Virus record (IMG/VR): IMGVR_UViG_3300035099_000469
Span: 1 to 44,376 of that record
Length of the DNA: 44,376 nt
Source of the DNA: a virus
Strand: one strand, 5' to 3'
Of the stretch, positions 5,798 through 38,935 are shown piece by piece. Under the pieces are notes generated by a model. It was not told the origin of the DNA. It ran no database searches and worked only from the letters and a program-made list of their open reading frames with translations. Position 1 is the first letter of the stretch. The number at the start of each line of letters is the position of its first letter. The translations under genes and the position numbers were made by a program.

Positions 5798-5830
5798 TAG
5801 ACCCCTGTCAAGCCCGTCTGCTCGATCATT

Positions 5831-5882
5831 TGCGGTCATTTTGCGGTCATTGTGCGCGCAAGTGCGGTCAAGTGCGCTCACG
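5831..5882. promoter_or_regulatory. Helically phased GCGSTCA array A
   Basis: GCGGTCA or a close variant starts at 5832, 5843, 5854 (GCGCGCA), 5864 and 5874, with spacings of 11, 11, 10 and 10, so all copies face the same side of the helix. The array ends 39 bases before the start of the HTH gene at 5921. The same word in the same phasing occurs at 33902-33961, and a weaker form at 44338-44360. An operator array for a cooperative repressor is the simplest reading. Confidence 0.6.
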
Positions 5883-5920: not shown

Positions 5921-6136
5921 ATGGACCGGCGATTCATCACGCTGAGCAGACTGGCCGCGCGATTGGGCCTGCCGCGGCGATTCCTGCGTGAGCAGGCCCG
6001 ACGCGGCCTGATCCCGTACCTGCTGGTCGGCGGGCGGATGCGGTTCGAGGAAGCGGCCGTCTGCGAGGCGCTCCGCCGCCAGTCGGTCGGGCGGCCGGAC
6101 GCCGGTGCGACCGCGGAGGTCGAGCGTGCCCGGTGA
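5921..6136 (+). CDS. Excisionase/MerR-type HTH protein (71 aa)
   Basis: The protein begins MDRRFITLSRLAARLGLPR, the usual start of excisionase-like winged-helix proteins (helix 1, LAARLGLPRRFLREQ; helix 2, ARRGLIPYLLVGGRMRF; then EEAAVCEALRRQ). The ATG at 5921 is chosen because the homology begins there. The longer in-frame reading to 5852 would translate the phased repeat array. It is the first gene of the plus-strand module that carries a primase and a serine recombinase, which fits an excision or replication-control factor. Confidence 0.75.
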   Translation: MDRRFITLSRLAARLGLPRRFLREQARRGLIPYLLVGGRMRFEEAAVCEALRRQSVGRPDAGATAEVERAR

Positions 6137-6371
6137 CCTTACCAGCACCGTCCGGCCGACCCCGACCGCCGCCCGCCGGCGACCGCGACGCGGCCATCCG
6201 CCTGCGGCCGGTGTTGCTTCGACCGATCGAGTGGGCGACTTCGAGCTGCGGATCGTGCTCGCCGACGAATCTCCCGAGTCACGCCGGCGGTGGGAGCAGC
6301 GGAGCGAGGCGCTCGCCGCCTGGCTGCTGAGCCGGTGGCGTGAGCAGCACGGGCCGGAGGGGCGGAACTGA
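6126..6371 (+). CDS. Small unrecognised protein (81 aa), coupled to primase
   Basis: A GTG at 6126 lies inside the tail of the preceding HTH gene and the frame stops with TGA at 6369-6371, which overlaps the ATG of the primase (TGATG). This double coupling argues it is translated. The N-terminal half is Arg/Pro-rich and low complexity; the C-terminal half (DFELRIVLADESPESRRRWEQRSEALAAWLLSRW, given here only as a region at residues about 37-72) is a charged amphipathic helix pair. The family is not recognised. Confidence 0.6.
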   Translation: MPGDLTSTVRPTPTAARRRPRRGHPPAAGVASTDRVGDFELRIVLADESPESRRRWEQRSEALAAWLLSRWREQHGPEGRN

Positions 6372-8818
6372 TGGACGGCCTGGACCTCATCCGCCGGAAC
6401 ACGCCCGCGGGCCTGCGGGAGCCGCCGCAGTGGGTCTGCTGGCGCTCCGAGAACGCCCCGGACGGCCGGTCCCGCAAGGTGCCCTGCGACCCCAAGACGG
6501 GCCGGCCGGCCAGTAGCACCGACCCGGCGGCGTGGAGCGCCTTCGAGCAGGCGCTGGAGGCCTGCGCCGGCGGCGGCTACGCCGGCGTGGGGTTCGTCTT
6601 CACCGCCGCCGATCCCTTCTGCGGCATCGACCTGGACGACTGCCGCGACGAGGCTGGCACGCTGGCCGGCTGGGCGGCCGCGATCGTGGGGGAGCTGGCG
6701 AGCTACGCGGAGATCAGCCCGTCCGGCCGAGGCGTCAAGGTGTTCGTCCGGGCGGTCAAGCCGGGGCCGCGGTGCCGTACGGCGTGCGAGGGCGGCGAGG
6801 TCGAGCTGTACGACCGCGACCGGTTCTTCACCGTCACGGGCCACGTGCTACCGAACGTCCGCGGCGACGCGGAAGAGCGGCAGGCGCAGGTAGACGCGCT
6901 GTACGAGCGGCTGTTCGGGCCGGCCGACAACGATGCTTCCGCGACCGGCCCGGCGGGTGCGCCACGCGAGTTTACGGCGGCCGCCCCGTGCGTGCTCTCC
7001 GACGACGAGATCATCCGCCTGGCCGGAAGCCTCAGGCGGAAGAGCGGCGCGGGGCAGAAGTTCGCCGACCTGTTCGAGGGCCGCTGGGAGGGCTACTTCG
7101 GCTCGGCCAGCGAGGCCGATTCGTCGCTGTGCTGGACGCTGGTGTATTACACCAAAGACCCCGGCCAGATCGACCGCCTCTTCCGCCGGTCGGGCCTGTA
7201 CCGCCCGAAGTGGGACGAGCGGCACGGCCGGGCGACCTACGGGCAACTGACCATCGAAAAGGCCCTGGCCGGCGTGACCGGGCAGTACACACCGCCGAAG
7301 CGCTGGGCTGCACACGAGCGAACGGACGCCGCAACGGATACCACCGGCGACCCGCCCGACGAGCTGCCGCCGCTGTATCGGCCGGACGTGGTGGCCCGGC
7401 TGTTCCGCGAGGCGAACGCCCGGCTGATCTACTGGCGTGACGTGTTCCACCTGTACGGCAGGACGTGCTATCAGCCGCTGACTGAGGCCGAGCTGGGTGC
7501 CCGCGTCGCGGCCTTCATCACGGAGGTGGGCTGGTGGGCCCGGCCGGCCCGCAAGGTCGGACTGGCTTACGAGAAAGGGGCCATCCCGCACCCGGACTAC
7601 GGCGACCTGATGGTGGTGCTGGAGAAGGTCGTCCCCAAGGTCGCCCACATCCGCGAGATCTTCCTGCAACTGAAGATCGACTACCTGCCCGACGCGACCG
7701 ACGCCCCGATCTGGCTGACCTACTTCACGCGGCCGCTGGCGGTAGAGTTGCTAGCCTGCGCCAACGGATTGCTGCACCTGCCGACGGGGCGGCTGCACCC
7801 GCACGACGAGGAGCTGTTCGCGCTCAACGCGGTGGACTACGACTACGAACCGCGGGCCCCCGCCCCGTCCGCCTGGCTGGCGTTTCTGTATGACCTGTTC
7901 GGGGACGACCTGGAGTCGGTCGAGACGCTCCAGGAGCTGTTCGGCTACTTCCTCCTGCCGGACACCCGCCAGGAGAAGATCGGCCTGATCGTCGGCCCCA
8001 AGCGGAGCGGCAAGGGCACCATCGGCCGGGTGCTCACGGGTCTGCTGGGCAAGGCCAACGTGTGCGCCCCGACGCTGGCCAGCCTGGGGACGAACTTCGG
8101 CCTGTGGCCCCTGCTGCACAAGCCCCTGGCAATCATCAGCGACGCCCGATTGAGCGGCCGGACCGATCAGGCGGTGGTGGTCGAGCGGCTGCTGAGCATC
8201 AGCGGCGAGGACACCATCACGGTGGACCGCAAGCACCTGGCCCCGTGGACGGGCAAGCTGCCGACGCGGTTCCTGATCCTGACCAACGAGCTGCCGAAGC
8301 TGTCGGACGCCTCGGGCGCGCTGGCCAGCCGCTTCGTGCTGCTGTGTCTGACGCGGTCGTTCTACGGGCGCGAGGACATGCTGCTGACGGACCGGCTGCT
8401 GGAGGAACGCCCGGGCATCCTGAACTGGGCGATCCAGGGCTGGCGGCGACTGAACGAGCGCGGCTACTTCGTCCAGCCCGGGGCGTCGGAGGAGGCGCTC
8501 CGGCAGCTCGAAGACCTGGCCTCGCCGATCAACGCCTTCGTTCGCGAGCGGTGCATTGTGGGGCCGGACCGGTCGGTCGAGGCGGGCGAGCTGTTCGCGG
8601 CGTGGCGGACCTGGTGCGAGGAGACGGGCCGGGCCCACGCGGGAACGATCCAGGGCTTCGGGCGCGACCTGCGGGCGGCGGTGCCGGGGTTGCGGATGTC
8701 ACAGCCGCGGGTGGAGGGTGGTCGGACGCGGTTCTACGAGGGCCTCGCGCTGGCGGAGGACGAGCAAGCCACGGGTTTGGCTGGCACGCTTGGCACGCAT
8801 GGAACGCGATCCTGGTAA
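6371..8818 (+). CDS. Primase-polymerase/helicase of NrS-1 / D5 phage type
   Basis: An 815-aa replication protein. Residues about 85-91 (GIDLDDC), then EISPSGRGVKVF and ELYDRDRFFTVTG, are the AEP-type primase/polymerase motifs seen in NrS-1-like proteins (metal-binding Asp pair, His/Arg and second Asp). The C-terminal half is a D5-type superfamily 3 helicase: Walker A GPKRSGKGT at about 541-549, acidic ISDARLSG at about 590, and sensor segment RFLILTNELPKL at about 630. It starts on the TGATG overlap with the previous gene. It would prime and unwind the element's DNA. The last residues (GTLGTHGTRSW) are encoded by a 9-bp repeat that continues downstream. A second, unrelated primase-helicase is at 36482-38935. 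Confidence 0.88.
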   Translation: MDGLDLIRRNTPAGLREPPQWVCWRSENAPDGRSRKVPCDPKTGRPASSTDPAAWSAFEQALEACAGGGYAGVGFVFTAADPFCGIDLDDCRDEAGTLAGWAAAIVGELASYAEISPSGRGVKVFVRAVKPGPRCRTACEGGEVELYDRDRFFTVTGHVLPNVRGDAEERQAQVDALYERLFGPADNDASATGPAGAPREFTAAAPCVLSDDEIIRLAGSLRRKSGAGQKFADLFEGRWEGYFGSASEADSSLCWTLVYYTKDPGQIDRLFRRSGLYRPKWDERHGRATYGQLTIEKALAGVTGQYTPPKRWAAHERTDAATDTTGDPPDELPPLYRPDVVARLFREANARLIYWRDVFHLYGRTCYQPLTEAELGARVAAFITEVGWWARPARKVGLAYEKGAIPHPDYGDLMVVLEKVVPKVAHIREIFLQLKIDYLPDATDAPIWLTYFTRPLAVELLACANGLLHLPTGRLHPHDEELFALNAVDYDYEPRAPAPSAWLAFLYDLFGDDLESVETLQELFGYFLLPDTRQEKIGLIVGPKRSGKGTIGRVLTGLLGKANVCAPTLASLGTNFGLWPLLHKPLAIISDARLSGRTDQAVVVERLLSISGEDTITVDRKHLAPWTGKLPTRFLILTNELPKLSDASGALASRFVLLCLTRSFYGREDMLLTDRLLEERPGILNWAIQGWRRLNERGYFVQPGASEEALRQLEDLASPINAFVRERCIVGPDRSVEAGELFAAWRTWCEETGRAHAGTIQGFGRDLRAAVPGLRMSQPRVEGGRTRFYEGLALAEDEQATGLAGTLGTHGTRSW

Positions 8819-8909
8819 TTGCGGAAAACTTTCGGGCCTATTGGTTTGATCGAGGGAAGTAAAAAAAAGAGCTGCAATAGGGTGGATCGCGTGCCATGCG
8901 TGCCGCGCG
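8782..8909. repeat. 9-bp repeats and 21-bp inverted repeat around A-rich core; candidate origin
   Basis: TGGCACGCT, TGGCACGCA and TGGAACGCG follow one another with period 9 at 8782, 8791 and 8800 in the end of the primase gene. A 21-bp segment at 8792-8812 recurs inverted at 8884-8904 with a single mismatch. The 71 bp between (8813-8883) include an A8 run and are AT-rich for this window. Iterons beside an A/T tract right after a primase-helicase gene suggest a replication origin. This is inferred only. Confidence 0.5.
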
Positions 8910-8939
8910 GGCCGAAACGGGACCAAGGAGAGCGTGACG

Positions 8940-9337: not shown

Positions 9338-9733
9338 ATGCTACGTGCAACGGAGCGCGAACTGGTGGCCGCCAGGAAGGTCGCCGACGCCGTGACAGAA
9401 TTCCTGATTGCTTGGGACGAAGGTCGGCGACTCCGGACGCCTGAGGAAAGCAGGCCCCAGGTCGAGGTGAAGCTGCCGGAATGGCCACCCGTCCCAAGGC
9501 CGGGGCCCGAGCTTCCGCAGGAGCCAAAGCTCCCGCCGGCAGACCCTGGCCAGCTCATCGGGGTAAAGGAACTGGCGAAGCTCTTGGGATGCGGGTCCCG
9601 CACCATCTACCGGCTCGCCGACAGCGGGCGGATGCCGCGCCCTCGCAAGGTTGGCGGCCTCGTTCGGTGGTCGCTCATGGAGATCAGGAAGTGGGTCGAG
9701 GACGGCTGCCCGAAGGATCACCGCAGGCGGTAA
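9338..9733 (+). CDS. AlpA/excisionase-family HTH protein (131 aa)
   Basis: The C-terminal half is a standard helix-turn-helix_17 (excisionase/AlpA) domain: LIGVKELAKLLGCGSRTIYRL at about 69-89, then ADSGRMPRPRKVGGLVRW and IRKWVEDG. The N-terminal half is a helix followed by a Pro-rich linker. A strong ribosome-binding site (AAAGGAGG) lies 7 bases before the ATG. Its position immediately before a large serine recombinase suggests it is the recombination-directionality or transcription factor of that element. The preceding 150 bp (9183-9337) contain no gene that I can see. Confidence 0.85.
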   Translation: MLRATERELVAARKVADAVTEFLIAWDEGRRLRTPEESRPQVEVKLPEWPPVPRPGPELPQEPKLPPADPGQLIGVKELAKLLGCGSRTIYRLADSGRMPRPRKVGGLVRWSLMEIRKWVEDGCPKDHRRR

Positions 9734-9818: not shown

Positions 9819-10010
9819 GCCGACCACGCCTCCTGCCACGCGCGGCGCTGCCCCTGGCTGGCCGGCCGGGAGCCGTCCGGGATCGACCCGCACGGTTTTC
9901 AGACGGAAAGCAGCCCGCCGATGCTTGACACGCTGGCCATCGTGACCGCAAGGTGGACGTAAGACGCGATGACACAGGCACTTGCGACAGAGCAACAGGA
10001 GGCAAGAACG

Positions 10011-11324
10011 ATGATCGCGACGGTCACGACGCCGGCAGTGGCCTACCTGCGCCGGTCCACCGACAAGCAGGAACAGAGCATCGCCGACCAGCGGAGCGAG
10101 ATCGAACGGTACGCCCGCGACCGCGGCTTCCGCATCGTCCGGGAGTACGTGGACGACGCCATCAGCGGCACCTCGGCCGAACAGCGGCCCGGCTTTCAGA
10201 AGATGATCGCCGACGCCCCGGCCGGCGGCTTCAAGGCGGTGATCGTCTGGAACTCCGACCGCTTCAGCCGCGGCGACGTGACCGAGACCGAGTATTACCG
10301 CTTCCTGCTCCGCAAGGCCGGCGTGACCGTCCTGAGCGTCACCGAGGATTACCTCGCCCGCGAGGGCATCGACGGCGACGTGTTGCGAACCGTCAAGCAG
10401 TTCCAGAACCGCCAATACTCGATCAGCCTCTCGCAGAACACGCTCCGCGGGCAGATCAGCTCGGTGACGGCGGCGGCCAACCCGTTCCGCTGGAGCACGA
10501 AGTACTTCGATCCCGAGACGGGGCTGAGCGACTCCGGCGGGCGGTACTACCACGCCGGGCTGGGGCGCTGGCCGAATCGTGATCCCATCGGGGAAGTCGG
10601 TGGCCTCAACCTCTACGCCTATGTGCACAACGATCCGGTGAACCGGGTCGATCCCTTCGGGTACATGGCCATTCCGTGCCCGTGGCTCTTCACCGATCCG
10701 TCCCGCTGCGGGTCGTGCCCGGGAAAGCCGCAGTCACAACCGGCGACGCAGCCCGACTCGCAACCCGCTTCACAACCAAAGGAAAGCGAAGGCTGGAAGA
10801 AAGCAAAGAACATAGATGACTGCCGTATGGGTCCTCCACCTGGAGGTAACCCGGGGAACTGTCCAGATCCGTCGCCGGGACTCCTATTGTGCATGGCATT
10901 CAAGGAGTCCAGCTTTGACCCAACACCCGGCAAAGGGGACGTCCGTGGCATGGGCAAGATGAGCGAAGCCGCGTGCAAAGACGTGGATGCTGCCTACAAG
11001 CAGCCCCCGGGCACGTGCTGGAACAAGGTGAACAGCGGCGATGCGTGTGCGCAACAGCAGATGATGGATGCATATATGCGCGTACTCCTCGGCAGATCGA
11101 AATGTGACACAGACGAAGCGCTGAAGCGCTACGGAGGTTGGGCCAAGAAGCCCAAAGAGGGTAAAGACCGGTACGTCGATCCAATCCGCAACTGTGAACA
11201 CTGCGTTCAGGGAATACTGAATGGCCGACCCTGTCGCGATGTTCCAGAGTCAGAACTGAAATCCTGCTTTGAGAAGCTGACCGAGGAATCCAGGGAAGCA
11301 AATCGGCGCTGGGACCGCCGTTAG
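10011..11324 (+). CDS. Serine recombinase catalytic domain fused to RHS core and lysozyme-like tip
   Basis: Residues 1-150 are the resolvase catalytic domain of a large serine recombinase: VAYLRRSTDKQEQS with nucleophile Ser16, then YVDDAISGTSAEQRPGFQ and VWNSDRFSRGD. At LRGQIS the family sequence stops and an RHS-associated core begins without frame change (NPFRWSTKYFDPETGLSDSG, then RDPIGE, LNLYAYVHNDPVNRVDPFG). A linker rich in Gln/Pro/Ser leads to a C-terminal domain with CMAFKESSFDP (candidate catalytic Glu near 299), GMGKMSEAAC and many Cys residues, resembling a lysozyme or transglycosylase toxin tip. The ATG at 10011 has AGGAGG upstream; 9969 is an alternative. The recombinase has lost its DNA-binding half and cannot be a normal integrase. 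It could be genuine or an assembly chimera. Confidence 0.75.
   Translation: MIATVTTPAVAYLRRSTDKQEQSIADQRSEIERYARDRGFRIVREYVDDAISGTSAEQRPGFQKMIADAPAGGFKAVIVWNSDRFSRGDVTETEYYRFLLRKAGVTVLSVTEDYLAREGIDGDVLRTVKQFQNRQYSISLSQNTLRGQISSVTAAANPFRWSTKYFDPETGLSDSGGRYYHAGLGRWPNRDPIGEVGGLNLYAYVHNDPVNRVDPFGYMAIPCPWLFTDPSRCGSCPGKPQSQPATQPDSQPASQPKESEGWKKAKNIDDCRMGPPPGGNPGNCPDPSPGLLLCMAFKESSFDPTPGKGDVRGMGKMSEAACKDVDAAYKQPPGTCWNKVNSGDACAQQQMMDAYMRVLLGRSKCDTDEALKRYGGWAKKPKEGKDRYVDPIRNCEHCVQGILNGRPCRDVPESELKSCFEKLTEESREANRRWDRR
10476..10566 (+). repeat. 91-bp direct repeat in RHS core, copy 1
   Basis: Identical to 12998-13088 except for one base (C versus T in GACTCC/GATTCC). It encodes the conserved RHS core. 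The upstream neighbour is recombinase sequence and the downstream neighbour is the lysozyme-like tip. Confidence 0.95.
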
Positions 11325-11390: not shown

Positions 11391-12257
11391 ATGCAATCGA
11401 CCATGTTTCGATGTTTGAACTACATACTCTGTACGATCCCCAAGCGGCACAGTGTAGCGTGTGTGTTCAGTCTGGTCAGCGTATTGACGATCACGTCTTG
11501 TGTCCGCTCAGACAGGGTCTGCCCATGCTGGGACGGCTCAACAGACTGCGCAGGTAGCTGGCGCGTCGTCCAGGTGCCTGGATCGCCCTATAGAATAGCG
11601 TATGAAGATGACTGGGGGCGGAACGTGAATCGGCTCGTGGTGTGCCGATATGGCTCCCCTGTGTGGTTGATGGACGGGTTCCGCTGGCACTTGATGGCAG
11701 ATTGCGAGAAAGCCCCGTTCCCCCTGGGGTGCGATATTACGGGTGACGGCACTCAGGACATTGTCATCGGCCAGTGGGACGGTTCGGCTCGAGGGGCGAT
11801 GACATACACGATTCTCGGGCTTGGCGAAACAGTTAGCATCATTGCAGTGCTGAATGCTCCGGATGCTGGCGGGCAGTTCGTTGACTTCGATGGCGATGGG
11901 ATCTGGGAGTTGGAAACGGAAGACGACACGTTTGAGTTCTGGGAAGGGTTGTCCCGCCGTTCGTTGCCTCCGCCCAAGGTCGTTTTGCGATTTCAGAATG
12001 GCCGATATACTCTATCCACGGATGACATGGCGCGGCTTGTTACGGAGGAGGATAATACTCGCATTTGGATTACGGCGAGGCTCGTGGAACTGATATACAG
12101 GGGTCGAATGGAAGACGCGTGGGCTCTCTTGGATGGGAGTCGGGAGATGGTCGGCGGTGATTCGGAGAACATTCGGAGCGCCATTCTGTCATGCCTGGCA
12201 AGAAGCCCGTATGGCAGCGAGATCTTGAATTGGAACCGATGCGCTGCGGCGAAGTAA
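11391..12257 (+). CDS. Predicted lipoprotein, candidate immunity protein for RHS tip
   Basis: A 288-aa protein with a hydrophobic signal segment (ACVFSLVSVLTITSC) ending in a lipobox-like Cys, so it is probably anchored in a membrane facing the periplasm. Two Asp-rich loops (DITGDGTQD, DFDGDGIWE) look like calcium-binding FG-GAP/VCBS-type turns. It follows the RHS-lysozyme-like tip by 66 bases with its own GGAG site. RHS toxins are usually followed by their immunity gene, and a periplasmic lipoprotein is the expected kind of inhibitor for a wall-cutting toxin. The family is not recognised, so the immunity role is inferred from position and localisation. The gene has lower GC than its neighbours, which fits tip/immunity cassettes acquired by transfer. 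Confidence 0.7.
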   Translation: MQSTMFRCLNYILCTIPKRHSVACVFSLVSVLTITSCVRSDRVCPCWDGSTDCAGSWRVVQVPGSPYRIAYEDDWGRNVNRLVVCRYGSPVWLMDGFRWHLMADCEKAPFPLGCDITGDGTQDIVIGQWDGSARGAMTYTILGLGETVSIIAVLNAPDAGGQFVDFDGDGIWELETEDDTFEFWEGLSRRSLPPPKVVLRFQNGRYTLSTDDMARLVTEEDNTRIWITARLVELIYRGRMEDAWALLDGSREMVGGDSENIRSAILSCLARSPYGSEILNWNRCAAAK

Positions 12258-13156
12258 TCCTGCCGAGCGCCTGGCTTGTCGCCGACATGAACTGTGACGG
12301 AGTGGCGAACTTCGCGGACATCAACTGCTTCGTGGCCGCGGCGGGCAATTGCCCGCCCAATCCCGACCCGTACGCCTGCGCCCCGTGCGACTGCCTCAAC
12401 GGGGACCTGAACGGCGACGGGGTAGTCGATTTCGCGGACATCAACCTGTTCGTGGGGACGATCGGCGCGGTGGGCGCGCAGACGCAGTATTCCTGGGACG
12501 GTGAGAACCGGCTGATTGGGGCCGAGCCCTCAACGGCAACGCCGCCCGACGGCACACAGAAAGCCGAGTACCTGTATGACTACCTGGGCCGTCGCGTGCA
12601 GAAGCGGGTCTGGACGTACGCGGGCGGGAGCTGGGGCGCGCCGGTCGTGCGGCGGTTCGTGTATGCGGGCTGGCGCATCGTGCTGGAGCTGGACGGCGAC
12701 AATCAGGTGGTGCGGAAGTACACGTGGGGCCTCGACCTGGCCGGGCAGAGCGGCGCGTTCAACAGCCTGAAGGATGCCGGCGGGATCGCCGGACTACTGG
12801 CGATGTCCGATCCGAACGATCCCAATGATCCGAACGACTCGTTCGGCGAGTTCGCGTACTTCTACGATGCGCACGGCAACGTCGGGCAGGTTGTGGACTG
12901 GGCGCACGACCCGAACGATCCGGCCGGCCCGCTGGTGGCGAAATACGAATATGACGCGTTCGGGAACATCACCTCACAGTCCGGCTCGTACGCGGCAGCC
13001 AACCCGTTCCGCTGGAGCACGAAGTACTTCGATCCCGAGACGGGGCTGAGCGATTCCGGCGGGCGGTACTACCACGCCGGGCTGGGGCTGGTAATCGGCA
13101 TGGAAATGGGACCCAGATCGGCGAGGAAAACGGGCCCACCTACATCAATAGAATAG
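12191..13156 (+). pseudogene. Orphan dockerin-RHS fragment without N-terminus or tip
   Basis: The recognisable part begins near 12275 with two dockerin type I-like calcium loops (DMNCDGVANFADIN and DLNGDGVVDFADIN), followed by YD repeats (QYSWDGENRLIGA, EYLYDYLGRRVQKRVW, FAYFYDAHGNVGQV, YEYDAFGNITSQSG) and the RHS core. It breaks off after YYHAGLG into an unrelated short tail (LVIGMEMGPRSARKT). The nominal ATG at 12191 lies inside the lipoprotein gene and is not a credible start. It is the left half of an rhs gene whose secretion and N-terminal parts are missing and whose tip is lost. Dockerin loops within an RHS protein are typical of Phycisphaerae-like planctomycetes in my experience. The DPNDPNDPND segment is low complexity. 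Confidence 0.75.
12998..13088 (+). repeat. 91-bp direct repeat in RHS core, copy 2
   Basis: Matches 10476-10566 at 90 of 91 positions. Recombination between the two copies would delete 2522 bp (tip, lipoprotein and dockerin-RHS half) or produce tandem copies. Confidence 0.95.
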
Positions 13157-22009: not shown

Positions 22010-22464
22010 GTCTGGAGCTTCCCGCACGGAGTCGCGCCGTGCCGGCCATTCTGCTTGATTCGCAGCACCTCGCGGCGGTGACTGAGCACGAGCGCGAGCA
22101 GCAGCGTCAGTGATACGACGAGCGTGGCGCCGACGCCGAACTCGCTGCGGTAGCCGGTCGCGTCGCCGCCGATGCCGGTCGCCTGTACTTCGGCGCGAAG
22201 CGTCGTCTCGACGGCGGTTTGGATGCGGCTCGCGAGCTCGGCCTGCACGCCCGCGACGATCTGGCCGCTGAGTTGCTGGACATCCAGCGCGGCGGTGTCG
22301 TCGGCCGGCTGCGACGCCGCGGGTCGCCACGGCGACTCGCCTGTGGCGAGCGGCGGCATCACGACCAGCCGCGGTTGCGACCGGCTCGCGGCGCAGCCGA
22401 CCAACAGGGCAAGCAAAGTGACGAGTAGCGAGTAGCGAATAGCGAATGAAGATGCGCGTCGCAT
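22006..22464 (-). CDS. Predicted lipoprotein with C-terminal membrane helix (152 aa)
   Basis: Start chosen at the ATG at 22464 (CGGAGGACG upstream), giving a signal peptide MRRASSFAIRYSLLVTLLAL ending in a lipobox (LLVGC). The middle is a soluble helix (VQQLSGQIVAGVQAELASR). A second hydrophobic helix (GVGATLVVSLTLLLALVL) is near the C-terminus. The signal peptide is partly encoded by the 7-bp repeat array. Together with the lipoprotein at 22502 it forms a pair that could be a spanin-like lysis pair, although the position before gp10 is odd. That function is a guess. Confidence 0.65.
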   Translation of the reverse strand: MRRASSFAIRYSLLVTLLALLVGCAASRSQPRLVVMPPLATGESPWRPAASQPADDTAALDVQQLSGQIVAGVQAELASRIQTAVETTLRAEVQATGIGGDATGYRSEFGVGATLVVSLTLLLALVLSHRREVLRIKQNGRHGATPCGKLQT

Positions 22465-22514
22465 GATCGTCCTCCGGGTGTAACTCGCTACTCGCAATTC
22501 GCTACTCTGAACTC
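22423..22514. repeat. Inverted arrays of a 7-bp word (GAGTAGC) between two lipoprotein genes
   Basis: Forward units GAGTAGC, GAGTAGC, GAATAGC, GAATGAA start at 22423, 22430, 22437 and 22444. Reverse-complement units GTAACTC, GCTACTC, GCAATTC, GCTACTC, TGAACTC start at 22480, 22487, 22494, 22501 and 22508. The period is exactly 7. The 29-bp spacer holds the ribosome-binding site and ATG of one lipoprotein; the right arm supplies the stop codon of the other. Confidence 0.8.
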
Positions 22515-33724: not shown

Positions 33725-33902
33725 CGTGCTGCCGCTTCTGCTCCTGCTGGTTGAGCCACGCCCCGTAGACGATCAGGTCGATCCGCTTGTCCACCAGTGG
33801 TAGGCCGCGGCGGATGTGCGCGCGGATCGTCTGCGGCGCCACCTTCAGCAGCTTCGCCGCGGCGGCGACCGTCAGGGCGCGGATGTCGAGTTCGGTAGCC
33901 AT
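33714..33902 (-). CDS. Small HTH protein, possible terminase small subunit (62 aa)
   Basis: MATELDIRALTVAAAAKLLK, VAPQTIRAHIRRGLPLVDKR form an excisionase-type helix-turn-helix; the rest is YGAWLNQQEQKRQHDGA. The ATG at 33902 is used; an upstream TTG at 33920 would begin within the phased repeat. It overlaps the terminase by 11 bases, as small terminase subunits often do. It may instead be an autoregulator of array B, which begins at its first codon. Confidence 0.75.
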   Translation of the reverse strand: MATELDIRALTVAAAAKLLKVAPQTIRAHIRRGLPLVDKRIDLIVYGAWLNQQEQKRQHDGA

Positions 33903-33961
33903 GCGGTCAAGTGCGGTCAAAGTGCGCTCAAAATGCGGTCATTCGCGGTCAAGTGCGCTCA
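33902..33961. promoter_or_regulatory. Helically phased GCGSTCA array B
   Basis: GCGGTCA/GCGCTCA copies start at 33903, 33913, 33924, 33935, 33945 and 33955 (spacings 10, 11, 11, 10, 10; mean 10.4). It ends in the same CGGTCAAGTGCGCTCAC string as array A (5831-5882). It covers the space between the radical SAM stop (33939) and the HTH start (33902), including the stop codon. Confidence 0.65.
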
Positions 33962-35848: not shown

Positions 35849-36492
35849 GGCTGGTGGACCTCCTGCCCCGGCGTGCGCGCGGCCGAACGAAAAAAACCTG
35901 CTCCGGAGCCGTTCTCGCGGCGGTTCTTTTCCGACGGACCGTCGGAAGGACCCGGAGCGTCCCCCGAAACCTCTGCGACCTCTGCAACCTCTGCACGACG
36001 GAGACGCGGCCAGGCCCACACGTCCTTGCTGATCTGCGGGCCGTGATACTCGGCGCAGTAATGCCACTCGTCGGCCGGCGGCAGGCACACGTGCGGCAGC
36101 GGGCACGCCAAGCCGCTGCTGGTGGGCACCTTGGACCGCAGGCAGTCCGCGCAGCGGCAGTGCTTCAGCAGCGTGACCGGCCCGGGCAGGTGCAGAGGTT
36201 GCAGCGGTTGCAGGGGTCCGGCGTCGATACGCTCTGTACGGGCGCGCGCGTGCGCGCGCGCGTGCGCCCGCGCATGCGTAAGGCTGTGAGAAACCTCTGC
36301 AACCTCTGCGTGCCGCTCGTAACCTTCGCTCGGTGCGCGACTTGGCGATGCAGAGGTTTTACAAAACCTCTGCACGACCTCTGCAACCTCTGCGTGACGA
36401 CCGCCGCGCATGGGGTCCGCCGGTTCGCGCAAAACCCCTGCAACCCCTGCGTCCTGCGTGGCCAGCCGGTGAAGGACATTCTCAAGCCCCAT
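35845..36492 (-). CDS. Repeat-rich protein with Cys/His cluster (215 aa)
   Basis: Coupled on both sides: the ATG at 36492 overlaps the primase stop by 11 bases and the TGA overlaps the ParB start. The recognisable core, about 110-165, is Cys/His-rich (LLKHCRCADCLRSKVPTS, CPLPHVCLPPADEWHYC, GPQISKDVWAW) and may bind zinc. The flanks are peptide repeats of AEV produced by the 9-bp word GCAGAGGTT (HAEVAEV twice, RAEVAEVAEV) and an HARAHARA stretch from an alternating GC tract. The last 40 residues are encoded by the dispersed 84-bp repeat. It has therefore absorbed three kinds of repeat without losing the frame. Function unknown. Confidence 0.6.
   Translation of the reverse strand: MGLENVLHRLATQDAGVAGVLREPADPMRGGRHAEVAEVVQRFCKTSASPSRAPSEGYERHAEVAEVSHSLTHARAHARAHARARTERIDAGPLQPLQPLHLPGPVTLLKHCRCADCLRSKVPTSSGLACPLPHVCLPPADEWHYCAEYHGPQISKDVWAWPRLRRAEVAEVAEVSGDAPGPSDGPSEKNRRENGSGAGFFRSAARTPGQEVHQP
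35870..35953 (-). repeat. Dispersed 84-bp structured repeat, copy 2
   Basis: Inverted copy of 9735-9818 with the same landmark order and a 19-bp variable part, here a perfect 9-bp hairpin TTCCGACGG-T-CCGTCGGAA (35929-35947). The conserved CCGCCGCGAGAACGGC and T-run follow. It lies inside a reading frame, unlike copy 1. Confidence 0.65.
35968..36450. repeat. 9-bp word RACCYCTGC in both orientations, about 14 copies
   Basis: Forward units at 35968, 35977, 35986; 36292, 36301; 36365, 36376, 36385; 36433, 36442. Reverse units at 36192, 36201, 36210; 36350. Adjacent units keep period 9. The pair at 36350-36373 (GCAGAGGTTTT-AC-AAAACCTCTGC) is a perfect 11-bp hairpin. Confidence 0.8.
36242..36267. 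other. 26-bp alternating purine-pyrimidine tract
   Basis: Uninterrupted GC/GT alternation from 36242 to 36267, followed after three bases by another 11-bp alternating stretch. This composition favours left-handed Z-DNA under torsion. It lies within the reading frame of the 215-aa repeat protein, in the middle of the 9-bp word cluster. Confidence 0.6.
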
Positions 36493-38935
36493 GGATGTCC
36501 TCCAGCCGGTAGACCGCCTGACGAGCCTTGCGCTGACGGATGCGCCACTGGCCGATGGGTGCGTTGACGTGCCGCGTCAACAGCTTGCCAAACACCGAGC
36601 CGCGGGCGGCGATGCCGTTGCGAGCGAACACGAAGCCGAACAGGCCGTTCTGCTCGGCGAGGTTCATCAGTTCGAGCGCTGTCACTTCGGCCGCGCCGAA
36701 GGTCTCATGCCACACCTCGACAAACGTCTCCATCTCGGAGCCGTGCGGGTTGGCCACCTTCTGCCACTCGCCTTCGTTCGTGCGCCACGCCCGCAGGCCG
36801 TTGACTTGCAGGATGCCGCCGACCACCTCCGACCAGCTCTCGAAGCCGCCGAGTCGGTCGGTGCATGTCGGCCGGCCGGCCGCGAGCCAGTTCTCGACCA
36901 GCCCGAGCAGGCATTCCAACACCGTCCGCCGCTGCCGGCGCACGTAGGCCCGGATGTCGGGATGCTGGAAGTCGGTGCGGGCCTCCGGGTTGGCCGAGGC
37001 CGGCTCGATCATGATGGGGACGATCCGCTTGGCGATCTCCCCGGACGCCTGGACGTTGTTGCCCGTGCCAACGACCGTGAGGTTGTTCGGCAGTGACACG
37101 TTTCGCGAGTAGCCCAGCAGCCGGCCCAGGAAGCGTTGGGTCGTCAACAGGCTCGCCAGCGCCGGCGAGTCGATGTAGGACGGCAGGTTGTCCAGGTGCA
37201 TCAGCGTTTCACCTTGGAGCAGCATCGCCAGGATGCGTTTCTCGCGCTCCTCCTCCCGGTCGGTGATCTGCATGGACGGCGTGTCGCGGCCGGTGACGAT
37301 GCCGCCGAAGACCTCGTTGACCAGCTTGCTCTTGCCGGTTCGCTCCAGGGGCGCGTTGAGCAGGTGCATCGGGCGGTTGCCGTCCAGCGCGGGCGTGACG
37401 ATGGGCGTCAGCAACAGGCCAAAGAAGTTCTGCCGGTCCGCTTCGCCCTTGAACGGGAAGTCCACGACGAGATCGTGCAGTACGTTGTGAATGACCTCGC
37501 AGTCGGTCTCCGGCCGCAGGTCGCGCAGCTCGACCGGCTCGTCGTAGAACAGCCCGTCATGCCAGCCCGGCTCAACAAGCTCGAAGCCCGGCCCATAGAC
37601 CGGGTAGGACACCATCAGCGACAGCTCGCGGACGCCGGCCGCGCCGGTCGCATGGGCGACGACCAGGCCCGCGGCGTCCTTGTTGCACGCCTGGTAGAGC
37701 AGCAGTTGCTCTTTCGTCTGCCGGTGTGTGACCCACTTCCCGAGCTTGACGTGGCCGTCCACGACGATGCGCATCCGGTCGGCCGACAGCTCGACCCACT
37801 TCCGCCGGCCGGGGGCGCCGATGATCTCGCCGGGGATGAAGTCGCGCCGGTAGATCGCGTCGTCCGGCAGCCGCGACAGCACTTCCGCGGCGAAGTCCGC
37901 GCTGGACCGCTCGATGTATTCGTCCTGGTCGTCCTTGTGCGGGCCGGGGAGCAGGATGTACTCGCTTGAGTCGCCGTCGGGATCGCCTTCGCCCGCCGGT
38001 CGGTCGCGCAGCTCGATCCGGCGCGGCTGGGCAATGCCCGAGTCCAGACCCGAGCGAAGCGTGGCGTCGATTTCCTTCGGCTCCAGGCCGACCGATTCGG
38101 CGGCGCTGCGCAGCGCTGCTTCCACCTCGGCCCGGTCCAGATAGCCGCCGCCGATCAGCCGGCCCAGGCTGAACGCCGCCCGGTTGAGCGTCTCATTGCG
38201 CGTTCCGTCGGCGGCGCTGCACAGCGCGTGCAGTTCGAGTTGCAGCGCCCGCTGCGCGTAGCGGGCCGCTTTGGCGTCGGCGCGGTCCGTTTTCGCGGCG
38301 GGCGGTCCGGGAGCCGGTCGGGACGGCGTTTCGAGCGCCGCGGGCAACGGCGGCCCCGCCGCGGCCTGTTTGGCGCGCTCTGGCGACTCCAGCAGTTTCA
38401 CGATGTGCGCCGGCAGTTCGGCGATTTCCACCTTCCACGGCTCGCGGCCTTCCGCCCACGTGTACGTCGCCCCGGTGTCGGGATGCACCGAGCCGGGGAA
38501 GACGACCTGCCCGCGGTCGGCCTTAACGTCGATGTGCGGCCCCAGCTTCTTTGAGGAGTTGCCCAAGGGGCGGTCGTGGCGGAAGTAGAGGTGGAACGCG
38601 CCCGGGCGCCCGGATAGCGCCGTCACCGTGCCGGGCAGATCGAGCGGCTCGATGTCCGCGCCGGGGTCCACGTCGATGACGACGATGCCGCTGGCCCGGC
38701 CGGTGCGCAGGCCGACGTTGCCCTGCGCCGCCCACGCGAGCACCTGTTCCAGCGACTCGCGCGGCGCGGACTGCCAGCCCTTCAGCACGGGGCGCTTGCC
38801 GTCCAGCGGCGTGAACGACCAGCCCAGGCCGTAGCCGTAGCGGACGCTTGTCGCCAGCGGGCTACCCGAGCCGGACGCCGGCGGCGGCGAGTCGCCGCCG
38901 CACGTCTTCGACGGACTTTGCGAGGATGTAGACAC
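36482..38935 (-). CDS. Prim-pol / primase-helicase (817 aa), second replication protein
   Basis: The N-terminal bifunctional primase-polymerase domain has GWSFTPLDGKRPVLKGW, the metal site IVVIDVDPGAD at about 82-92, and HLYFRHDRP and DVKADRGQVVFPGSVH later. A middle spacer of low complexity leads to a C-terminal ATPase with a degenerate Walker A (PLERTGKSKL, about 527-536), TLMHLDNLPSYIDSP and a sensor-like LTVVGTGNNVQASG. This is the plasmid/phage prim-pol-helicase type, distinct from the 6371-8818 protein. The start at the ATG at 38935 overlaps the VRR-NUC gene by 74 bases. It probably initiates prophage replication. The 9-bp repeat cluster begins immediately downstream. Confidence 0.87.
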   Translation of the reverse strand: MSTSSQSPSKTCGGDSPPPASGSGSPLATSVRYGYGLGWSFTPLDGKRPVLKGWQSAPRESLEQVLAWAAQGNVGLRTGRASGIVVIDVDPGADIEPLDLPGTVTALSGRPGAFHLYFRHDRPLGNSSKKLGPHIDVKADRGQVVFPGSVHPDTGATYTWAEGREPWKVEIAELPAHIVKLLESPERAKQAAAGPPLPAALETPSRPAPGPPAAKTDRADAKAARYAQRALQLELHALCSAADGTRNETLNRAAFSLGRLIGGGYLDRAEVEAALRSAAESVGLEPKEIDATLRSGLDSGIAQPRRIELRDRPAGEGDPDGDSSEYILLPGPHKDDQDEYIERSSADFAAEVLSRLPDDAIYRRDFIPGEIIGAPGRRKWVELSADRMRIVVDGHVKLGKWVTHRQTKEQLLLYQACNKDAAGLVVAHATGAAGVRELSLMVSYPVYGPGFELVEPGWHDGLFYDEPVELRDLRPETDCEVIHNVLHDLVVDFPFKGEADRQNFFGLLLTPIVTPALDGNRPMHLLNAPLERTGKSKLVNEVFGGIVTGRDTPSMQITDREEEREKRILAMLLQGETLMHLDNLPSYIDSPALASLLTTQRFLGRLLGYSRNVSLPNNLTVVGTGNNVQASGEIAKRIVPIMIEPASANPEARTDFQHPDIRAYVRRQRRTVLECLLGLVENWLAAGRPTCTDRLGGFESWSEVVGGILQVNGLRAWRTNEGEWQKVANPHGSEMETFVEVWHETFGAAEVTALELMNLAEQNGLFGFVFARNGIAARGSVFGKLLTRHVNAPIGQWRIRQRKARQAVYRLEDIHGA

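Follow-up and report, generated by a model that had tools for sequence, protein, structure and literature searches.

The segment 8782-8913 of the DNA analysed here is very probably the replication origin of the P0001 module, with the predicted C-terminal winged helix of this first primase-helicase as the likely reader of the iterons found there, and a second origin built to the same plan, at 36191-36450, would serve the second primase-helicase, P0002. This reading is drawn from sequence: the anatomy of the segment, its recurrence with other words behind the primase genes of relatives, and the covariation between these words and the C-termini of the proteins. The window, by which we mean the whole stretch analysed, is 44,376 bp of the IMG/VR virus record IMGVR_UViG_3300035099_000469 and has a mean GC content of 67%. 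The features around P0001 are as follows.

6371-8818, + strand: P0001, primase-helicase of 815 aa, with NrS-1-type primase/HBD, D5_N and DUF5906
8540-8770, + strand: predicted C-terminal winged-helix domain of P0001, ~residues 724-800 (the last 126 residues modelled with AlphaFold)
8782-8812, + strand: first iteron set, TGGCACGCT TGGCACGCA TGGAACGCG + ATCC
8813-8883: AT-rich spacer of 71 bp, 42% GC, the proposed melting site
8861-8868, + strand: A8 tract, the sole A8 or T8 of the window
8884-8913, - strand: second iteron set, inverted, with two units, TGGCACGCG and CGGCACGCA (read on the - strand), 26/30 complementary to 8783-8812
9338-9733: AlpA-like HTH gene downstream of P0001 (Pfam/PHROG searches)
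9969-11324: serine recombinase/integrase gene downstream of P0001 (Pfam/PHROG searches)

An earlier note on this DNA had reported 9-bp units, a 21-bp inverted pair and an A8 tract at the end of P0001, and all of these are real. Three units (8782-8808) lie inside the last P0001 codons, where they encode GTLGTHGTR; for 8782-8807, TRF gives 2.9 copies of TGGCACGCA (88%). The word arrays on this side are TGGCACGC arrays. The inverted pair, 8792-8812 and 8884-8904, matches at 20 of 21 positions and extends to longer arms (8783-8812 and 8884-8913) that match at 26 of 30. It is the single instance of a 20/21 pair with arms at most 150 bp apart within the 44-kb window, and no such pair appeared in 100 dinucleotide shuffles. 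A chance origin of the repeats was ruled out by the shuffles and by control windows. In AT content, the spacer 8813-8883 ranks among the top three places of the window (42% vs 67% GC). GC skew tracked gene direction across the window and gave no origin signal.

P0001 itself matches PF22763 (3.7e-24), PF19263 (3.2e-14) and PF08706 (4.7e-8) in Pfam and phrog_1829 (1.3e-134) in PHROG. Its best PDB relative is 7ola, a 797-aa 'DNA primase' that we take to be SaPI5 Rep, over residues 11-307 and 460-754. Residues 15-311 match the PDB primases 7rr3, 6k9a and 6a9w, and together with PF22763 these give P0001 the primase and helix-bundle domain of NrS-1-type primase-polymerases. DNA-binding domains of the RFX winged-helix type are structural matches of the AlphaFold model of the C-terminus (E 2.0e-5 and 8.1e-5), and we propose that this modelled domain is the reader of the 9-bp words.

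Relatives were collected via their primase proteins alone, so that the search was blind to repeats. We scored a strict signature, an exact 7-mer direct pair at a spacing of 8-11 plus an inverted copy, from -150 to +600 of the primase stop. It was present in 56 of 93 non-redundant loci, compared with 73 of 1243 control windows from the same loci. The 93 loci remained from 127 after removal of 16 without a + strand match, 14 duplicates and four short loci; 21 loci were re-read, 13 of them with a stop, and these were judged by eye only. The best period was 9, seen in 35 loci (2.7 expected), followed by 10 in 20 loci (0.9 expected) and 8 in 11 loci (1.05 expected), and the distribution rose again at 18-20. 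An earlier count of 8-mers, which took in 87 of 89 loci with duplicates included, had shown five or more occurrences of one word close to the stop in 23/87 loci vs 15/1248 control windows. The words differ from group to group of relatives and keep the same position. The first copy lies a median of 16.5 bp past the stop, and the opposed sets are separated by a spacer with a median length of 75 bp and a GC content 15 points under the locus mean. An alternating purine-pyrimidine run of at least 12 occurs in the spacer of 16/53 loci vs 16/2650 control stretches. One check that the earlier note had proposed, a search for 9-bp arrays of other sequence after homologous primases, therefore comes out positive (56/93 vs 73/1243, with peak spacing 9).

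The same note had held that homologous primases lacking such arrays would speak against its proposal, and this is partly what we found: the strict signature is absent in 37 of the 93 loci, against the 56 that carry it, and entire groups, the 9NA-like and the Vibrio phages, are without an array. Among annotated phage and satellite records, the signature was found in 9/16 vs 2/103 control windows. The seven without it are 9NA, Tbat2_2, PM-CJR, the Vibrio phages 1.285, 1.056 and 104E43.1, and CHPC1029; KeAlii has it by a single spacing only, and by eye its array is not convincing. Locus L125 (G066 contig 249), also a primase-helicase relative, has two in-frame TAG codons, for which recoding or decay is possible.

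The second primase-helicase and its surroundings comprise the following features.

36482-38935, - strand: P0002, primase-helicase of 817 aa, Prim-Pol PF09250 (Pfam, PHROG searches)
36485-36730, - strand: winged helix predicted at the C-terminus of P0002 (residues 736-817), with the recognition helix around ARGSVFGKLL (AlphaFold model, family alignment)
36292-36450, - strand: iteron sets nearest the gene, GCAGAGGTT / GCAGGGGTT; one copy, 36350-36358, is inverted
36237-36281: alternating purine-pyrimidine core, GCGCGCGCGTGC repeats, GCGCGC/GTGC (TRF 36242-36278)
36191-36217, + strand: distal inverted iteron set
35968-35995, - strand: extra set of three units, 487-513 bp beyond the P0002 stop, also in loci L093, L094 and L095
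35845-36492, - strand: 215-aa ORF overlapping the P0002 stop and spanning the iteron arrays

The 9-bp word cluster reported directly after P0002 was confirmed, and it is the strongest in the window. The word AACCTCTGC has eight exact copies (six on the + strand, two on the - strand) at 35968-36393, with near copies as far as 36450, and this is the top 9-mer count among all 600-bp windows (8; others at most 4). Words of the GCAGAGGTT type flank the GCGCGC/GTGC core 3' of P0002 in both orientations, and an alternating GC/GT-rich core stands at the corresponding place in the P0002-family members examined. The cluster overlaps the 215-aa ORF, so part of its 9-bp periodicity could be coding. This ORF has no Pfam or PHROG match; the C-terminal half of its product is cysteine-rich, and similar DNA is found in L093-L096, L109 and L110.

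P0002 sits in a tailed-phage operon: genes for a sigma factor, a Sak4-like protein and a helicase precede it, and those for terminase, portal, head and tape measure follow. A phrog_21 portal match was found in 6/10 P0002-family records and in 11/36 records overall, while the Pfam portal PF04860 was found in 0/36. Of the six P0002-family records with a match, five (L007, L010, L102, L106 and L110) have one in-frame TGA within the phrog_21 portal match. The AlphaFold model of the P0002 C-terminus has a per-block pLDDT of 79-95 over fragment residues 41-128. A sequence search of this C-terminus against the PDB gave no significant match and Foldseek gave no match to the model at E 0.001; a second structural look returned many winged helices at Z 6-8, middling by the scale of the tool. 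Both C-termini are predicted winged helices, that of P0002 from its modelled elements, with no more than middling structural matches. The earlier note had spoken of two unrelated primase types. P0001 and P0002 indeed do not align, by BLASTP or by profiles, but each joins an archaeo-eukaryotic-type primase domain to a helicase-like part, with a predicted winged helix at the C-terminus, and the coincidence is thus a single architecture that occurs twice.

Within the P0002 family, the layout is constant and the word is variable. Words like GCAGAGGTT occur in the window, in L008 and in L093-L095, the latter being Planctomycetota contigs that are 94, 89 and 86% identical. The word is GGGAGAATC in L007, L009, L010, L102 and L103, GGAGTCTGN in L011 and L110, GCGGAGGTT in L109, GTATAGGTC in L096, CGGATATTC in L106 and GGGAGACTC in L107; that of L012, GACGAGGTC, lies ~700 bp further on. 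For a correlation with the proteins, the words were aligned by hand to one register, that of L008 resting on 40 bp, and L108 was excluded because its contig stops 349 bp past the stop, where the array is absent. With the body controlled for, word distance followed the distance between C-termini (n=17, partial r 0.73, permutation p 1e-4); with body distance it did not correlate (-0.17). Along the protein, the correlation stayed at 0.04-0.25 as far as residue 740 and reached 0.5-0.7 in windows from 720 on. These comparisons indicate that the word of the P0002 family goes with the C-terminal winged helix and not with the enzyme body.

One relative, L007, has a body 96% identical to that of P0002 and a C-terminus only 41% identical, and carries the word of the L009 group. 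Its DNA is mostly 80-98% identical to the window outside this region, drops at about -240 to +300 and rises again at the core between. By its sequence, L007 is a natural cassette swap. Since the words adjoin the end of the gene, recombination could move word and C-terminus together without any contact between them; such linkage has to be taken seriously as another explanation of the L007 swap and could explain part of the covariation. A literature search, mostly open-access, turned up no account of word-domain covariation in these phages.

It is a credible but tentative extension, short of what we would call probable, that winged helix and iteron arrays form a swappable specificity cassette, moved as a single unit around a conserved core, in several phage primase-helicase families, with two independent initiator-origin pairs in this record that would not cross-talk, their words being different. 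In the P0002 family, the halves of the word would then track recognition-helix residues, the helix G-[SA]-[VA]-F-G going with words xxxxRGGTY and the helix [NS]-V-A-F-G-R with words xGGAxxxTx.

The arrays could instead be operators, through which the winged helix of the primase or another regulator controls transcription of adjacent genes. Other word arrays of the window do directly precede HTH genes (5829-5880 and 33901-33961), and a protein bound at an origin could regulate as well. However, the arrays keep to the 3' end of the primase gene whatever the neighbours, the spacer that the inverted sets enclose is AT-rich or alternating and varies rather little in length, and origins are annotated at that very place in A2 and phiadh; we consider operators an improbable explanation. 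The arrays at 5829-5880 and 33901-33961 consist of GCGGTCA / GTGCGCTCA words in 10-11-bp steps, have GCGGTCAAGTGCGCTCAC in common and stand immediately before, or at the start codon of, the two HTH genes. They may be a common operator that ties the operons of P0001 and P0002 together. Three words of this type are also present in L110 at 6042-6079, and an array before the same gene is absent in L093, L095, L007 and L109.

A second possibility is that the 9-bp units are three-codon repeats of a protein tail (GTLGTHGTR, or AEVAEV in the small ORF) with no role as DNA. The first set is in frame within P0001 and an open frame runs through the second cluster, but inverted copies are found outside the primase gene, the first copy lies past the stop in most loci, the arrays of L004, L005 and L006 are beyond the primase stop, and spacings of 8 and 10 are likewise in excess. 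A purely coding repeat was rejected on the inverted copies beyond the gene and the excess of these two spacings, and this explanation is most improbable. Equally hard to credit is an attachment, resolution or packaging site for a nearby serine integrase or terminase, an idea that the serine recombinase and AlpA-like genes after P0001 would favor, because the same architecture is found behind primase genes in many records retrieved via the primase alone. Period-7 repeats, CGAGTAG and, inverted, ACTCGCT, were also detected by TRF at 22422-22507 of the window.

The recurrence, the covariation of word and winged helix, and the annotated origins of A2 and phiadh together favor iterons that act with the primases, as the earlier note had suggested. 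We infer how replication might start at 8782-8913, through binding, melting and ring loading. The C-terminal winged helix of P0001 would bind the 9-bp words on either side of the 71-bp spacer, the inverted layout of the iterons would seat two helicase rings face to face, the facing rings would melt the spacer, and the primase domain would start DNA on the exposed strands. For NrS-1 polymerase, the start sites described are TTTGGTTA or GTG (PMC8718748). P0002 would use its origin in the same manner, the word there being a different one and the core an alternation of purines and pyrimidines.

The replicon that P0001 serves may be the phage, or a satellite or other element beside it. P0001 adjoins an AlpA-like gene and a serine integrase, and PICI satellites, small elements built on int, alpA and pri-rep-ori, have no portal/capsid set of their own; the same record also encodes terminase, portal, head and tape-measure proteins. 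A search of eight P0002-type records or genomes for close relatives of P0001 gave a single weak match and no close one. Genes 3' of the serine integrase (11391-13156, + strand) with FG-GAP, RHS and dockerin-like matches look host-like, and the border of the element may therefore be near 11.3 kb.

A testable candidate origin and its likely reader are thus located in phages of uncultured Planctomycetota, and the natural domain swaps offer a source for reading the recognition code of winged helices and iterons. If the words are specific, they would also account for the ways in which related phages and satellites that share a cell either escape cross-initiation or impose it.

Several known systems resemble the one proposed here. 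The tailed phages A2 and phiadh encode relatives of P0001 over 96-97% of its length (A2, 25.8% over 96% of the query). In both records, the annotated rep_origin starts at the 3' end of the primase gene, the same place as the arrays of the window, and inverted word arrays flank an AT-rich core as at P0001; they differ in their words and in having Gram-positive hosts. A search on the origins of A2 and phiadh, in mostly open-access literature, brought up no paper. The ori element of S. thermophilus Sfi21 (PMC6356513) belongs with these origins; CHPC1029, the single S. thermophilus phage tested, is without the strict signature.

PICI origins are described as lying 3' of rep, with an AT-rich region between two iteron sets, and a PICI rep-ori drives plasmid replication (PMC6092414). 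As in the SaPI and EcCICFT073 origins of that account, the P0001 origin would stand directly 3' of its primase-helicase initiator, the iterons starting within the last P0001 codons, and the two sets (8782-8812 and 8884-8913) flank a region of 42% GC. The nearby AlpA-like gene and integrase are also PICI-like. Unlike PICIs, this integrase is of the serine type, P0002-type modules are found in tailed-phage records (portal in 6/10), and several of them have a GC-rich alternating core instead of an AT-rich one. The same source ascribes the downstream-iteron origin to PICIs and to 'no other known bacterial replicon' (PMC6092414); our results suggest that it serves tailed phages too.

SaPI Rep and SCCmec Cch2 are reported to bind repeats 3' of their own genes via the C-terminal domain (PMC7581432). 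Cch2, a helicase proposed to be self-loading, resembles the arrangement proposed for P0001 in placing this domain on direct repeats just 3' of the gene, and differs in its three copies of a 5-bp AAGTG iteron and in having polymerase and primase as separate subunits (PMC7581432). ORF904 of the crenarchaeal plasmid pRN1 is likewise a prim-pol/helicase/winged-helix protein with an origin downstream, conserved in form and poorly in sequence (PMC4234260). That origin is a stem-loop of ~100 nt, iterons not being part of its description there (PMC4234260); the 21-30-nt arms around 71 nt at P0001 have similar proportions, but are built of repeated words.

An initiator primase-helicase with a downstream iteron origin is therefore a kind already known from phages and satellites. 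Less expected is the design in tailed phages, with a core that may be GC-rich and alternating. What is new is that a single planctomycete phage record holds two modules of this kind, each with its own word, and that word and domain covary, which renders a recognition code testable.
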